Positions 1,683-8,438 of a stretch of DNA of 64,000 bases are shown here, one piece after another (the stretch's first letter is position 1; the number at the start of each line of letters is the position of its first letter). The notes under the pieces are model-generated. The model worked only from the letters and a program-made list of their open reading frames with translations. It was not told where the DNA came from and made no database searches. The DNA lies in contig CANIAL010000003.1 of assembly GCA_947465395.1 (NCBI GenBank), positions 1-64,000 of the forward strand, read 5' to 3'. The DNA comes from Alphaproteobacteria bacterium (GTDB lineage: Bacteria; Pseudomonadota; Alphaproteobacteria; Micropepsales; Micropepsaceae). The position numbers were made by a program, and so were the translations under genes.

Positions 1683-2420
1683 TCAGCCCGCCAGTTTGTT
1701 CAAGGTGGCGTCGTCCACCGCGCCGGGATGCATCACGCCATTGATGATGAAGGTCGGCGTGCCGTCTATGCCCACGCTGTGCGCCAGGTCAATGCTGGCG
1801 GAAATGGCGGCGTCAATTTCCGGCTTCTGCATGTCGGCGCGCAACTTGACCATGTCCAGGCCGACTTTCTTGGCATCCGCGAACAGGATGTCGGGGGTGA
1901 TGAGATCGCTTTCCTTCATCAGTGCGATATGCAGCGCAAGGTATTTGTCGGGCTGGTTGCGGGACGCCAGGGTGGCTCTGGCCGCCACGATGGAATCATC
2001 ACCCTTGATGGGAAATTCAATAAAGGAATAGCGCGTGTCGGCCGCGTGCTTGGCCATGTGCTTTTCCAGTGCGGGCAGGGAGGCGCGGCAGAAGGGGCAG
2101 TTAAAGTCATAGAACTGCACCACGGTCTTGGTGGCGTTGGCCGGGCCAGTCACGAAGGCATATTTGGGATCGAAAAAGGGCTTCATGCCCACTTTTTGCA
2201 GCTTGGCTGCTGCCGCCACGCTGGCGGCTTCTTCTTGCTGTGCCTGAAGCTTTTCGCCCATCTGGGACATCAGTTCGGGATGCGCCAGCAAATAGCTGCG
2301 AATCTGCGCCGTGCCGCCATTGCCGGGTAGCAGCCCTTGATGCGCGGCCAGGAACACCAGCGCTACCGCCAGCACGGCGCCGCCCAGCGCGCCCACCAAT
2401 GCCGTCAAACCTTCGCGCAT
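1683..2420 (-). CDS. DsbA-family thiol:disulfide oxidoreductase, membrane-anchored
   Basis: A thioredoxin-fold protein predicted to introduce or reshuffle disulfides in envelope proteins. An N-terminal hydrophobic segment (about residues 8-27) serves as signal anchor. A Gln/Ala-rich helical linker follows, then the active site C108-P-F-C111 in FYDFNCPFCRASLPALEKH. The cis-Pro loop lies in GIDGTPTFIING near the C terminus. The length of 245 residues suits the DsbA/BdbD-like family with its helical N-terminal domain (COG1651 type). The ATG has GGGAG six bases upstream. The gene begins nine bases after the M48 protease gene stops, so they are probably cotranscribed and act in envelope protein quality control. 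Confidence 0.88.
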   Translation of the reverse strand: MREGLTALVGALGGAVLAVALVFLAAHQGLLPGNGGTAQIRSYLLAHPELMSQMGEKLQAQQEEAASVAAAAKLQKVGMKPFFDPKYAFVTGPANATKTVVQFYDFNCPFCRASLPALEKHMAKHAADTRYSFIEFPIKGDDSIVAARATLASRNQPDKYLALHIALMKESDLITPDILFADAKKVGLDMVKLRADMQKPEIDAAISASIDLAHSVGIDGTPTFIINGVMHPGAVDDATLNKLAG

Positions 2421-2429
2421 ATGTACTCC

Positions 2430-3821
2430 CTACCGTTGCCGGGCCGCGGCGGTCGCCGCCCCGATAATGTCGCCGGCCCGCTGCCAGTCGGCCGTGCCTT
2501 CCGTCAATCCGCGCCGGGCGCGGTTTGCGAAAATCACCGCCTTGGCCATGGCGCCGGTGTTGTAATACAGCTCGGCCGTGGAAAGATTCGCCATCGGCTC
2601 GTTTTTCAGAATGCTATAGGCCTGGGCTGTTTCATACCAGGTGAAGACATCGTCGTTTTCCGCCAGCGACGCAGCCTTGAGATTCTGCAGCGCCTGGCCG
2701 GCCAGTGACGGCTCGTCCGTCGCCAACAGCGCCACCGCCAGCCCCAAGCGCAGTTGCGGCGCGCCGGGCTTCAGGTTGACGGCTTTTTGATAGGCGGGAA
2801 TGGCCTGGTGCGGCTTGGCCATAGTCACATAGATCTGGCCCAGCACTTCCTGGAAATAGGGATTGGACGGTTCCTCGGCGATCAGGCTGTTGATCTCGGC
2901 CAGCGCCTTCGCCAGGTCGGGCTTGCGCAAGTAGAGCATGGCGCGGGCATAGCGCGCCGCTTCCGACGTGTTCGACACCGGATAGCGGGCCAGGCCCTGG
3001 TCCACCGGCAGCACATAGCCCGCAAGCTTCGCCTGCACCATTTCGAATGTGTGCGTGACCTGGGGCGGGTCCTTCACATCCTTGTAGGGGGAATTGGCGA
3101 CCTTCTCCTCGATGAAGCCCAGCCGTTCCTGGCCAATCGGATGGTCCACTGCGTACTTATCTATCTTGTAGGCGCTCTGCGCTTCCTCGGCGGCGAAACG
3201 GGCAAAGGTATTGTAAAGGCCATTGGCCGATTGGTGCGTGGCTGCCAGCAGCTGCAAGGCGATCTGGTCGGCGGTGCCTTCCTGCACGCGGGTGAACGCA
3301 TTCATCTGCGCTTCCGCCATGGCCGCACCCGCCCCGATGATGGCGGTGCCGCCTTCGCCTGCGCCCGCCGCCATCGCCGCCAGGCCCACGATCATGGACA
3401 GCAGCATGGGGATCATGGCCTTGGACGCCGCGTCGCCGCCGCGAATGATATGACCCGCCTTGATATGGCCAGTCTCGTGCGCCATCACGCCGATCAGCTC
3501 GTTCGCATTCTTGGCGAACATGATCATGCCCGTCATCATGAAAAGATTTTGGCCTTCGGCGACAAAAGCGTTCACCGAATTGTCGCCCACCAGGTAAAGA
3601 TTGACCGCGCCGGGATCCAGGCCCGCTGCGCGCGCCAGCGGCGTTTCATAGCTGCGCAGCATTTCCTCGGTCTCGGTGTCGCGCAGGATGGAGATGCCCT
3701 GGGCCATGGCGGGGGCCACGCCGAATGCCAGCAAGGCGGGCGCCAGGAAACCGGCGGCGAAGAACAGCCGGCGCCACTTATGGTCGTTCGGACGATGGGG
3801 GGATTCAGGAAACCGCGGCAA
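2430..3821 (-). CDS. M48-family metalloprotease with TPR repeats (BepA/YfgC-like)
   Basis: A periplasmic zinc protease of the kind that degrades or chaperones outer-membrane proteins. It has a signal peptide ending near APAMA (residue 40). The zinc motif is H115-E-T-G-H119, with the third ligand probably E181 in VQEGTADQIAL. A Gly/Ala/Met-rich hydrophobic stretch lies between them (about 135-165). The C-terminal third is helical TPR-like, including LGQIYVTMAKPHQAIPAYQKAVNLKP. The start is TTG, supported by GGGAGAG eight bases upstream and by the signal peptide immediately after it. Its start is separated by 149 bases from the divergent GGT-like gene. Confidence 0.9.
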   Translation of the reverse strand: MPRFPESPHRPNDHKWRRLFFAAGFLAPALLAFGVAPAMAQGISILRDTETEEMLRSYETPLARAAGLDPGAVNLYLVGDNSVNAFVAEGQNLFMMTGMIMFAKNANELIGVMAHETGHIKAGHIIRGGDAASKAMIPMLLSMIVGLAAMAAGAGEGGTAIIGAGAAMAEAQMNAFTRVQEGTADQIALQLLAATHQSANGLYNTFARFAAEEAQSAYKIDKYAVDHPIGQERLGFIEEKVANSPYKDVKDPPQVTHTFEMVQAKLAGYVLPVDQGLARYPVSNTSEAARYARAMLYLRKPDLAKALAEINSLIAEEPSNPYFQEVLGQIYVTMAKPHQAIPAYQKAVNLKPGAPQLRLGLAVALLATDEPSLAGQALQNLKAASLAENDDVFTWYETAQAYSILKNEPMANLSTAELYYNTGAMAKAVIFANRARRGLTEGTADWQRAGDIIGAATAAARQR

Positions 3822-3970
3822 GGCTCGACTCTCCCAGATTTAAAGCCTTTGGCCCCGCCCGCCGGGCAGGGTAAGTGCCGGGCAGGGCAAGGTCAATTAA
3901 GCCCTGTTCTGGGGCGCGCGGCTCGGGCATAACCGGCCCTGGCGATCCCCTAGCTGATTACAGGTTCTTC

Positions 3971-5332
3971 ATGCCGTCTTCGCGCTTTCTGACTTCACGG
4001 GCCATGATGTTTCTGGGCGCTGCCCTGACCTTGGGCGCCTGCTCCGTCCCTGCCGCGCTGGACAACGCCTTTTCGGGCGGCACGTCCGCGCCCGCCATCC
4101 AGACCAGCGGCGTGGTGGTGGGAGACGAGCCATATGCGGTCACCGCGGGCCGCACGATTCTCTCGCAGGGCGGCAGCGCCGCCGATGCGGCCACCGCCAT
4201 GTTCTTCGCCCTCAGCGTCACCTATCCGGTTTCGGCCGGGCTGGGCGGCGGCGGCGTCTGCATTGCGTCCGATAATGGGCGCTTGCAGGAGTTTGATTTC
4301 CTGCCCCGCGCCGCAAAGGCGAACGGGGCCTATGCGGTGCCGGGCGCGGTGGCCGGCTTCTTCGCCATGCAATCGGCATTCGGCATTCTGCCCTGGCAGC
4401 GCGATGTCTCGCCGGGCGAGACCTATGCGGCGACGGGCTTTCCCGTCAGCCACGCCTTGTCTCAGCGCTTGGCGACGGCGCAGGCCGTGATCCGGCAGGA
4501 CGCGGCGCTGTCGGCGGAATTCCTGGATGCATCCGGCGCTCCGAAAGCCGAAGGCAGCCTGGTGCGTAATGTGGCGCTGTCGCAGACGCTTGCCACCATC
4601 CGGCTTTCCGGCGCGGACGGATTTTACCGTGGCGCAGTGGCGGCGGAAATCGCGCAGCATGCGGCAGGCGCGTTCAGCGCGGCCGAGCTGGCGGAGTATC
4701 GCAGCACACAGGCCGCCGCGCACATGGTGGCGGCGGGCGGTTACAGCATCGCCATTCCTGGCGCGCAGACCGGCTCGGGCGCTTTTGCGGCAGCGTTGAT
4801 GGCATCGGTGCCGCCGTCCGCCGACCCGGAACAAAGCATCGTCACGGCGGTGCGCGCGGCGCTTCAGAAATTCGGCATTACATCATTGCCCCAGGACCTG
4901 GGCGCGACGGGTTTTGCTGCTGTGGATGCGCGTGGCCAGGCGGTCGCCTGCGCCGTGACCATGAACGGCCCGCTGGGCATGGGCAAAAGCGTGGGCGGCA
5001 CTGGTATCACCCTGGCCGCATCGCCCGGCGCACCGGCAGGCATTTCGTCGGCATTCCTGACTCCGCTGCTGACACGCGATTCTTCGGGCAAGATCGTCCT
5101 GGCGGGCGCGGGCGCGGGCGGCCCCAATGGCACGGCGGCCATCATCTATGCGGCGCTGAAACTGGCGGGCGGACGGCAACTGGGGCGGCCTTCCGACCTG
5201 CGCTCAACCGGTGTCGCGCCTTACGCCACCGTCAACGCGATTTCCTGTGACACTGGGGCCTGCGTTCCGCTGCCCGATCCTGGCGGCAATGGCCTGGGCG
5301 CATCCGCGGACGCAGTGATCAGCGAGCGCTAA
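3971..5332 (+). CDS. Gamma-glutamyltransferase-like lipoprotein, probable loss of the catalytic threonine
   Basis: About 453 residues from this ATG. The N terminus has a lipobox (LTLGAC, Cys24), so the product is predicted to be a lipoprotein. The body has the GGT fold signature: a Gly-rich SAGLGGGGV region (90-97), SPGETYAATGFPVSHAL, and the small-subunit region GFAAVDARGQAV followed by GPLGMGKSVGGTGITLA, ISSAFLTPLL and GAGAGGPNGT. In active GGTs the small subunit starts with Thr in a TTHYSVVD-like motif; here the aligned residues are A312-T313-G314-F. The nucleophile position is therefore Ala unless the alignment slips by one. It is also about 100 residues shorter than typical GGTs. Autocleavage and transferase activity are doubtful. 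Confidence 0.72.
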   Translation: MPSSRFLTSRAMMFLGAALTLGACSVPAALDNAFSGGTSAPAIQTSGVVVGDEPYAVTAGRTILSQGGSAADAATAMFFALSVTYPVSAGLGGGGVCIASDNGRLQEFDFLPRAAKANGAYAVPGAVAGFFAMQSAFGILPWQRDVSPGETYAATGFPVSHALSQRLATAQAVIRQDAALSAEFLDASGAPKAEGSLVRNVALSQTLATIRLSGADGFYRGAVAAEIAQHAAGAFSAAELAEYRSTQAAAHMVAAGGYSIAIPGAQTGSGAFAAALMASVPPSADPEQSIVTAVRAALQKFGITSLPQDLGATGFAAVDARGQAVACAVTMNGPLGMGKSVGGTGITLAASPGAPAGISSAFLTPLLTRDSSGKIVLAGAGAGGPNGTAAIIYAALKLAGGRQLGRPSDLRSTGVAPYATVNAISCDTGACVPLPDPGGNGLGASADAVISER

Positions 5333-5335
5333 AGC

Positions 5336-8080
5336 TCACTCCCCACCAAAGGTCTTCTGCCACCAGCCTTTTTTGCCGCTCTTGGGCGCGTCATCGCTGG
5401 GCGTGGTGTCGGGAATGTCATCCTGCAGCGACCAGACGGGCGCGGGCGGCTTGATGGCGCCGGGACCGTTCTGCGGCGTGGTGTCAATTTCATCTGGAGC
5501 GGAGCCAAAACGCGATTCCACGCCGGACGCGTTGGGACCTGCGCCATCGGTGCCGCGATCACGGCCGCCACGGCGGCCACGGCGGCGGCGCTTGCGGCGC
5601 GCGCCATCGGCGCCAGTTTCACCATTGCGGGGCTGCTGGGCGCCGTCGCTTGCTGGCGCGGATTCCAGGCTGGGCTGGGCTTCGTCGGAGGGCACGGCCT
5701 CGTTGCGTTCGCCATTCTGGCGACCACCTTCCGGGCGATTGCCTTCTGAACGTCCGCCTTCGGCACGGTCACGGTTGCGCCCGCGTCCGCCACGGCGGCG
5801 GCGCTTGCGGCCATTTTCGCCTTCGCCATCACCATTGCGCGGCTGCTCGGCGCGTCCGGCCCGATCATTGGAACGCTCGCCCACCGGCTGCGCTTCGGAA
5901 ACATCGGCGCTGTCATCCTGTTCGAAGACTTCGTCTTCCTCTTCCTCTTCCGCCACATAGTCGTCATCGGCATCGTTGGAGGGCACAAATCCCGCCTCGA
6001 TGGAGACGGCATGGGTGCGGGGCTTGGCGTCGGGATCGCGGGTGCGGGTGCGTTCCAGTTCGAAATTGCCCGCCGTCAGGCCATCCTTCGGTTCGAAGGA
6101 AACATCCATGCCGTATTCGGCTTCGATGCGGGCCAGTTCGCGGCGCTTTTGATTAAGGGCGTAAAGGGCGATGTCGGCGGCCACTTTCACCGTTACGGCG
6201 GCGGCGCGGTTCTTCTCGCCTTCTTCTTCCAGGGCGCGCAGCACGCGCAGGGTGGTGGATTCGACCGAGCGGACGATGCCGGCGCCCGCGCAATGCGGGC
6301 ACATCACGGTGGAGCCGGCTACGACACCTGCGCGCAGGCGCTGGCGGGACATTTCCATCAGGCCGAATTGCGAAATCTTGCCGATCTGGACCCGGGCGCG
6401 GTCATTCTTCACCGCATCGCGCAGCCGCTTTTCGACCTCGCGGTCGTTGCGGCTTTCTTCCATGTCGATGAAGTCGATCACGATCAGACCGGCCAAGTCG
6501 CGCAGGCGCAATTGGCGGCCCACTTCGTCTGCGGCTTCGAGATTGGTTTTCCGCGCGGTTTCCTCGATGGAATGTTCGCGGGTGGCCCGACCGGAGTTCA
6601 CGTCAATGGAAACCAGCGCCTCGGTCTGGTTGATCACCAGATAGCCGCCGGATTTCAAGGTGACAGTGGCCGAGAACATGGCGTCCAGCTGCGCCTCGAT
6701 ATGCATGCGCTGGAACAGCGGCACCGTATCCTTGTACTGATGCACATTGCGGGCCTGGCCCGGCATCAGCATGCGCATGAATTCCTTGGCGTTGCGGTGG
6801 CCTTCCTCGCCTTCCACGATCACGTCAGCAACGTCCTTGTTGTAAAGGTCGCGGATGGCGCGCTTGATCAAATCGCCTTCCTCGTAAACGCAGGCCGGCG
6901 CATTGGAGGCCAGGGTCTTTTCCCGGATCGTGTCCCACAGCCGGATCAGATACTCATAGTCGCGCCGTATCTCCAGCTTGGTGCGGTTCTCGCCCGCGGT
7001 GCGGATGATCAGGCCCATGCCTTCGGGCAGCTCAAGTCCCTGCGCCGCTGATTTCAAACGCTTGCGGTCGGCCGCATTGGTGATCTTGCGCGAAATGCCG
7101 CCGCCGCGGGGCGTGTTGGGCATCAGTACGCAATAGCGGCCCGCCAAAGAGAGATAAGTGGTGAGGGCCGCGCCCTTGTTGCCGCGTTCTTCCTTGACCA
7201 CCTGCACCAAGATGATCTGGCGGCGCTTGATGACTTCCTGGATTTTGTAATGCTTCTTGCGCATCCATTTCTGGGGCGGGCGGGCCATCTGCAGCGGCTT
7301 CTCGCCGCCTTCGGCTTGTGCTTCGCCGTTCTCCGGCGCGGCTTCGCCATTCTCGGAAACGGCATGTTCGGAAGAGGGCGCGACCGGCTCGATCTCCCCT
7401 TCATTCTCCATCACCGCTTCGGCGGCCAGCGCCGCCTGGTCATGGCCGTAATCGGCTTCAGCCTCTTCGGCGGCTTCCGATTTGGTCAGGGGCGCGTCGG
7501 GAATCTCGGAATCATCGTCATCGTCATGGGAATGATCGGCGCCGCCATGATTGACGAAGACATCGTCATGGTCTTCGACATGGGCCGATGCGCTGTTCTG
7601 TTCCGGCTCGGCCCGTTCTTCTTCAACACGGTCCGGCAGCGGCTCGATTGTGGCCGCGTCCAGGGTCACCAGGGCTGCGTCGCTGTCATCCTCGGGCGCT
7701 TCTTCTTCGGCTTCTTCGATTTCTTCGGCGGCATCGTCGCTCTTGCCGCGCATTTCAAAGGATTCGAAGTCGTCTTCCTGGCGGCGGCGGGCCTCGGCTT
7801 CCTGTTCGGCCAGCAGGGCTTGGCGGTCGGCAACCGGGATCTGGTAATAATCGGGATGGATTTCCGCGAAAGCGAGGAAGCCCTGGCGGTTGCCGCCATA
7901 TTCCACAAAGGCGGCCTGCAACGACGGTTCAACCCGCGTCACCTTGGCAAGATAGATATTGCCCTTGAGCGGCCGCCGCGAGGCAGCCTCGAAATCAAAT
8001 TCCTCGACCTTGGACCCGTCGAGAACCACGACGCGGGTTTCTTCCGGGTGGCTGGCATCGATCAGCATGCGCTTTGACAT
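5336..8080 (-). CDS. rne: Ribonuclease E
   Basis: Single-strand-specific endoribonuclease and degradosome scaffold for mRNA decay and rRNA/tRNA maturation. From the chosen ATG (MSKRMLIDASHPEETRV) it has 914 residues. The S1 domain is split by a roughly 170-residue Glu/Asp-rich insertion, a pattern typical of alphaproteobacterial RNase E. After it come the 5' sensor region, the DNase I-like catalytic core with the metal-binding aspartates in VSIDVNSGRAT and IVIDFIDMEESRNDREVEKR, and the Zn-link CPHCAGAG. The C-terminal tail is disordered and carries two Arg-rich blocks (RKRRRRGGRG and RKRRRRGRRGG) likely to bind RNA. An upstream extension in the same frame is rejected because the family N terminus begins at MSKRML. 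Confidence 0.95.
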   Translation of the reverse strand: MSKRMLIDASHPEETRVVVLDGSKVEEFDFEAASRRPLKGNIYLAKVTRVEPSLQAAFVEYGGNRQGFLAFAEIHPDYYQIPVADRQALLAEQEAEARRRQEDDFESFEMRGKSDDAAEEIEEAEEEAPEDDSDAALVTLDAATIEPLPDRVEEERAEPEQNSASAHVEDHDDVFVNHGGADHSHDDDDDSEIPDAPLTKSEAAEEAEADYGHDQAALAAEAVMENEGEIEPVAPSSEHAVSENGEAAPENGEAQAEGGEKPLQMARPPQKWMRKKHYKIQEVIKRRQIILVQVVKEERGNKGAALTTYLSLAGRYCVLMPNTPRGGGISRKITNAADRKRLKSAAQGLELPEGMGLIIRTAGENRTKLEIRRDYEYLIRLWDTIREKTLASNAPACVYEEGDLIKRAIRDLYNKDVADVIVEGEEGHRNAKEFMRMLMPGQARNVHQYKDTVPLFQRMHIEAQLDAMFSATVTLKSGGYLVINQTEALVSIDVNSGRATREHSIEETARKTNLEAADEVGRQLRLRDLAGLIVIDFIDMEESRNDREVEKRLRDAVKNDRARVQIGKISQFGLMEMSRQRLRAGVVAGSTVMCPHCAGAGIVRSVESTTLRVLRALEEEGEKNRAAAVTVKVAADIALYALNQKRRELARIEAEYGMDVSFEPKDGLTAGNFELERTRTRDPDAKPRTHAVSIEAGFVPSNDADDDYVAEEEEEDEVFEQDDSADVSEAQPVGERSNDRAGRAEQPRNGDGEGENGRKRRRRGGRGRNRDRAEGGRSEGNRPEGGRQNGERNEAVPSDEAQPSLESAPASDGAQQPRNGETGADGARRKRRRRGRRGGRDRGTDGAGPNASGVESRFGSAPDEIDTTPQNGPGAIKPPAPVWSLQDDIPDTTPSDDAPKSGKKGWWQKTFGGE

Positions 8081-8438
8081 GAATTTCTCCGTGCGGCGCT
8101 GCGCCCTGCTCGCGTTCCTGCGCGAGACTTGGGACGGCGTTCGGCCGCGTTGTGTGGGTGGGGGCAAAGCGTCTCCACACCAACACCGGCAGCGGGGCTG
8201 CCGGATGGTGGGGGGTGGGTCGCGTTCTGCCGGGCATAATGGTCACTTAAATTCGGGCCCTTGCGGGCAGGCTTGCTGCGGTTTGGCGGCGTCCATTTCA
8301 CAATCTGTGTAAAACGGGGGGTAGCCGGACCACCGCACCTTCCGGTTTTGGCCGGGGCGGCGCAGCATGGATTCCTTTGTAGGGACCCCATGCCGGGACG
8401 GCAAGGGCGCGGGGGGTACAATATTCCCCGCACCATCC
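8081..8438. other. 358-base divergent spacer between rne and the amidase gene
   Basis: No convincing gene. It holds the presumed rne leader on the minus strand, with a perfect 8-bp stem at 8186-8204 (CCGGCAGC, loop GGG, GCTGCCGG) and a smaller GCCC/GGGC hairpin near 8250. RNase E is autoregulated through a structured leader in enterobacteria; whether that holds here is inference. The part after about 8280 may hold divergent promoters, but no element is clear enough to call. Confidence 0.5.
8186..8204 (-). other. Stable hairpin in the presumed rne 5' leader
   Basis: A perfect inverted repeat, 8-bp arms and 3-base loop, 106-124 bases upstream of the rne ATG. No poly-U follows it on either strand, so it does not look like an intrinsic terminator. 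It could be a stabilising or autoregulatory element in the leader. Confidence 0.4.

Follow-up and report, generated by a model that had tools for sequence, protein, structure and literature searches.

The gene at positions 3,971 to 5,332 of the 64,000-nucleotide stretch of DNA analyzed here (the window) encodes a protein with the gamma-glutamyltransferase (GGT) fold that we read as a dead, uncleaved, and non-catalytic lipoprotein of the cell envelope, with a BepA-like protease as its most likely partner (probability about 0.6). The first-pass annotation had described it as a GGT-like lipoprotein without the catalytic threonine; computational analysis bears this out and places the protein in a family that spans the class Alphaproteobacteria, so that it is no isolated oddity. 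The features of the gene and its product are as follows.

3971..5332, forward strand: gene of the GGT-like lipoprotein, an intact open reading frame of 453 amino acids with its ATG at 3971 (PF01019, E = 6e-41)
3971..4042, forward strand: signal peptide and lipobox LGAC, with Cys24 at 4040-4042 (Cys in 154/155 relatives)
4124..4132, forward strand: family-specific motif D52-E53-P54 (D in 146/155, E in 148/155, P in 151/155)
4259..4261, forward strand: Cys97, family-specific (155/155 in the family; no counterpart listed for true GGTs)
4301..4303, forward strand: Leu111, where GGTs have Arg114, the alpha-carboxylate ligand (Arg in 32/32 true GGTs, Leu in 97/155 family members)
4904..4906, forward strand: Ala312 (GCG), at the nucleophile position by alignment (E. 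coli Thr391)
4907..4909, forward strand: Thr313, equivalent to E. coli Thr392 and not the nucleophile (Thr in 113/155; no hydroxyl residue in 33/155)
4949..4951, forward strand: Cys327 (155/155 in the family)
4958..4966, forward strand: Thr330 and Asn332, the retained GGT Thr409 and Asn411 (Thr in 129/155, Asn in 121/155)
5117..5122, forward strand: Gly383-Gly384, the retained oxyanion-hole glycines 483/484 (141/155 and 122/155)
5246..5263, forward strand: Cys426 and Cys431 (153/155 each; absent from the common residues of true GGTs)

Homology to GGT is clear at the level of the fold family. The protein matches Pfam PF01019 with 141 bits against a cut-off of 27 (E = 6.3e-41), which makes it a member of this family and of the GGT fold, and scores 121.4 bits against TIGR00066, the NCBIfam GGT equivalog, below the curated cut-off of 357.85. 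In a phmmer comparison with solved structures, A312 falls on position 367 of chain 2e0w. This position corresponds to residue 391 (2E0W is the T391A precursor of E. coli GGT, so residue 391 is itself Ala in that entry), and T313 pairs with Thr392. The same column for Ala312 is obtained by alignment with two GGT paralogues from the same genome (“ETTHYSVVD”). The initial observation that Ala (GCG, 4904-4906) followed by Thr313-Gly314 stands where GGTs have the nucleophilic Thr is therefore confirmed by phmmer and by the family alignment, with Thr313 falling on Thr392 and not on the nucleophile; the placement that the first-pass annotation had named as a refutation, Thr313 exactly as the nucleophile, does not occur. 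The two paralogues are full-length GGTs (588 and 590 amino acids) with the nucleophile motif “TTHYSVVD” intact. The window protein is ∼135 amino acids shorter than either, roughly in line with the earlier estimate of about 100 missing residues. The 1.77-Mb genome assembly thus holds two intact related full-length GGTs (L001 and L002, on contigs C9 and C1) together with the dead one.

The loss extends from the nucleophile to most of the residues that hold the substrate. Thr occupies the nucleophile position in 32/32 true GGTs and in 11/155 family members; since 144 of the 155 relatives carry another residue there, the Ala of the window protein is not a chance substitution. The gamma-glutamyl ligands Arg114, Gln430, Asp433, and Ser462 are missing from the window protein: Leu stands at 114, the loop that bears 430 and 433 is absent or changed, and 462 is mostly Ala across the family. 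Position 433, which is Asp in 32/32 true GGTs, falls in a deleted loop in 154/155 family members. The oxyanion-hole glycines 483/484 and Thr409 are in place (G383, G384, and T330), and across the family these residues and Asn411 are mostly kept while Ser462 is mostly lost; the retained elements could be structural or could support residual chemistry. In E. coli GGT, T391A abolishes autoprocessing and activity, T391S impairs the enzyme, and R114L leaves no detectable activity, while T380S costs H. pylori GGT 92% of its activity (PMC8062742). The window protein bears the equivalents of both T391A and R114L. By analogy with the T391A data (PMC8062742), autocatalytic cleavage into two subunits is expected to be absent, and the protein, deprived of its nucleophile and of most of the gamma-glutamyl pocket, would persist as a single uncleaved chain like the laboratory mutant. 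GGT-type catalysis is very probably gone, and the dead-enzyme part of our reading is strong; with a homologous fold, lost catalytic residues, and purifying selection, the family qualifies as a GGT pseudoenzyme.

A predicted structure points to the same fold. The AlphaFold2 model, built from 27 relatives (pLDDT 89.1, pTM 0.88), has a strand that starts at residue 312, and both Foldseek and VIA-align rank 2E0W, the uncleaved E. coli T391A protein, first (Z 47.1, 2.3 Å over 389 residues), followed by B. licheniformis T399A (Z 44.6). Single-chain entries are favored over cleaved ones in such rankings, so the top position of 2E0W speaks for the fold and not for an absence of cleavage. The proposal of a non-cleaving, repurposed GGT accordingly appears sound as far as sequence and model go, and it is also backed by the separate clade and the purifying selection described below. 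A role in binding a gamma-glutamyl ligand is disfavored because the residues that would hold such a ligand are gone.

Searched with a profile of relatives, at least 104 of the 289 sampled alphaproteobacterial genomes, roughly a third, yielded family members above 200 bits. Among the matches listed from a phylum-wide sample, all those above 200 bits lie in Alphaproteobacteria, and outside the class only GGT-like partial matches of up to 170 bits were found. The family (230 bits or more) is separated from true GGTs (170 bits or less) by a gap in score, and in a tree calculated without the columns of the site itself it forms one side of a fully supported branch. When genome contigs were scanned, a single-protein query gave no match and an alignment query gave 63 loci. 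A plasmid search returned mostly weak matches to GGTs, plus a closer relative, itself diverged (L276; 34% over 66% of the query), on the 1.1-Mb plasmid pTM3 of Tistrella mobilis, whose record carries no annotation.

The N terminus has the signal peptide and lipobox ([LVI][ASTG][GA]C, here LGAC24) of bacterial lipoproteins. Of the earlier statement that the protein is lipidated, the lipobox L-G-A-C24 stands, and lipidation itself is a prediction. Ser, not Asp, follows directly after Cys24. In E. coli, lipoproteins are sorted by whether the residue after the lipidated Cys is Asp or not. On the strength of the lipobox and this Ser, the lipidated Cys24 would serve as an anchor, most likely in the outer membrane on its periplasmic face, and the protein would act there non-catalytically, by binding. 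Cys97 probably pairs with Cys327, and Cys426 and Cys431 probably form a small disulfide loop; the two bonds would probably lock the fold.

The genomic neighborhood supplies the lead to a function. The genes flanking the GGT-like gene in the window are listed here.

3822..3970, no strand: divergent intergenic region of 149 bp, shared between the GGT-like and M48 genes
2430..3821, reverse strand: BepA-like periplasmic M48 metalloprotease with TPR repeats (HETGH motif; divergent in 151/154 family loci)
1683..2420, reverse strand: DsbA/ScsC-like thiol oxidoreductase (CPFC), in the same neighborhood in most distant genomes
5336..8167, reverse strand: RNase E gene, the convergent neighbor

The M48 protein aligns with E. 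coli BepA along most of its length (E about 4e-21). Its divergent arrangement was counted over the 154 family loci with enough flank, and none of the 32 true GGTs has such a neighbor. The M48 pairing was found in 19 of 20 distant loci, more often than RNase E, and in four loci (L081, L082, L089, and L091) the M48 and GGT-like genes stay together with RNase E not found within the 20-kb stretch. On the RNase E side the gene order continues with AmiC, PBP1a, and PrfB, and Alphaproteobacteria conserve the block DsbA-M48-[GGT-like]-Rne-AmiC-PBP1a as a whole.

BepA promotes the maturation of LptD in E. coli and works with BAM (PMC8423444), and its homologue in Alphaproteobacteria co-evolves with lptD and bamB (PMC10883770), which makes a BepA-related role the best lead. 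The window protein would then most likely serve outer-membrane protein assembly and quality control alongside the BepA-like M48 protease, as an accessory or binding partner. The partnership itself is tentative, as the link may be one of gene position only, and we consider it a doubtful extension that throughout the class GGT-fold pseudoenzyme lipoproteins partner the alphaproteobacterial BepA-like protease, without catalysis of their own, in the assembly of outer-membrane proteins or LptD.

The alternative that survives best keeps the dead GGT-fold lipoprotein and separates it from BepA: the protein would bind some other envelope ligand, such as a peptidoglycan stem peptide, a peptide, or a thiol, and the M48 linkage would be inherited gene order. 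We judge this possible but unlikely. It draws on the conservation of the whole neighborhood, on a pocket that is partly kept (Asn411 and the oxyanion glycines), and on genomes in which one gene occurs without the other. BepA-like M48 genes are present in 255 of the 289 genomes, as against at least 104 with the GGT-like gene; where the latter is absent, M48 adjoins RNase E or, in two genomes, an aminotransferase fills the slot. These are PLP-dependent aminotransferase-like genes recognized by eye between RNase E and M48 (L265:6906-8063 and L268:7041-8063). Conversely, at least four genomes of one lineage (f24; L093, L200/L274, L206, and L275) have the GGT-like gene without a BepA-like M48 gene beside it, and in two of these genomes, G091 and G201, no M48-TPR protein was detectable at all. 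Neither gene requires the other, since both kinds of genome exist. Against this alternative stands the persistence of the divergent pair in nearly all loci, including the distant ones where RNase E was not found in the stretch, as does the loss of the gamma-glutamyl-holding Arg114, Gln430, Asp433, and Ser462.

That the family consists of N-terminal-nucleophile hydrolases still, either through a shift of the nucleophile to Thr313 or through lineages with Ser or Thr at position 391 that act on a new substrate, is improbable. At the nucleophile position the 155 distinct members have Ser (59), Ala (50), Gly (24), Thr (11), Glu (3), Asp (3), Arg (2), Asn (1), Gln (1), and Trp (1). A hydrolase could be read from the 70/155 with a hydroxyl residue (Ser or Thr) there, from the retention of the oxyanion glycines and Thr409, and from Thr313, which is common in the family and invariant in most of the window's genus. 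However, the 33 members with no hydroxyl residue at the Thr313 position led us to reject a shifted family-wide nucleophile; there is also no gap before the following strand, and a one-residue shift would likely misdirect the side chain. Over the 78 rows of the tree, the site switches state at least 29 times (between Thr and non-Thr at least 7 times) and so does not behave as a catalytic residue. Members with Ser or Thr do not have a clearly fuller catalytic set than those with Ala or Gly, and the T391S substitution already impairs a true GGT (PMC8062742). The 11 Thr-bearing members (L137, L156, L158, L159, L166, L169, L171, L174, L182, L196, and L197) are scattered over the tree (∼7 changes).

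Similarly improbable is an enzyme whose active site is new and assembled from residues peculiar to the family, D52-E53-P54 among others. This motif hardly varies among family members, and true GGTs lack its D and E, but it sits just past the first strand of the fold and no known catalytic arrangement is recognizable around it; it could instead mark a binding site. The idea of a decaying pseudogene, suggested by the lost catalytic residue and the shortened protein, is refuted by ten close pairs in which dN stays well under dS and by conservation, namely the intact reading frame, the class-wide retention, and the invariant Cys. The dN/dS ratios of these pairs (∼0.05 to 0.31) indicate that the protein is maintained, and together with the lipobox Cys and the four new Cys they argue for a constrained, working protein.

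Compared with GGT itself (MEROPS T03; E. coli Ggt, and L001/L002 in the same genome), the dead lipoprotein shares the alpha-beta-beta-alpha fold, the GGxAxDAA and LGGGG motifs, the oxyanion glycines, and the C-terminal DP...G motif, and differs in lacking the nucleophilic Thr, Arg114, the Asp433 loop, and PLSSM, in its predicted lipidation, its four extra Cys, its shorter length, and its genomic place. CapD, YwrD, LmbA, and cephalosporin acylase IV are likewise relatives within PF01019 with the GGT fold; they are active or presumed active and have the nucleophilic Thr. The closest parallels at the active site are E. coli T391A (2E0W), H. pylori T380A (2QMC), and B. licheniformis T399A (4Y23), which have Ala at the nucleophile and for which an uncleaved chain is expected. 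These are laboratory mutants, whereas the change in the window protein is natural and family-wide. Human GGT6, GGT7, and the GGTLC proteins are GGT relatives without validated activity (PMC12663528), but they are eukaryotic, are not lipoproteins, and lie in an unrelated genomic context. LptM and other accessory lipoproteins of E. coli outer-membrane assembly resemble the window protein as envelope lipoproteins, a role in assembly being hypothetical for the latter; LptM, a protein of about 6 kDa, has no sequence relation to it and showed no joint action with BepA (PMC10567701).

In a 2015 survey that covered 47 GGT-like proteins, the Thr is described as conserved throughout the known GGTs (PMC4568574), and our literature search returned nothing relevant on an inactive or pseudoenzyme bacterial GGT or on a link between GGT and BepA, and no description of the family. 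While the GGT fold is already known, as are proteins derived from GGT that have no validated activity, a class-wide family of dead GGT-like lipoproteins appears to be new. Automatic annotation is likely to call its members GGT, because their closest library matches are the GGT models PF01019 and TIGR00066, and with that label reconstructions of glutathione metabolism would likely go astray. Should the tie to the BepA-like protease prove true, the family would represent a lineage-specific component of outer-membrane assembly made from a retired enzyme. A Caulobacter protein named as GGT in an iron paper, CC_0984, is a possible member of the family.
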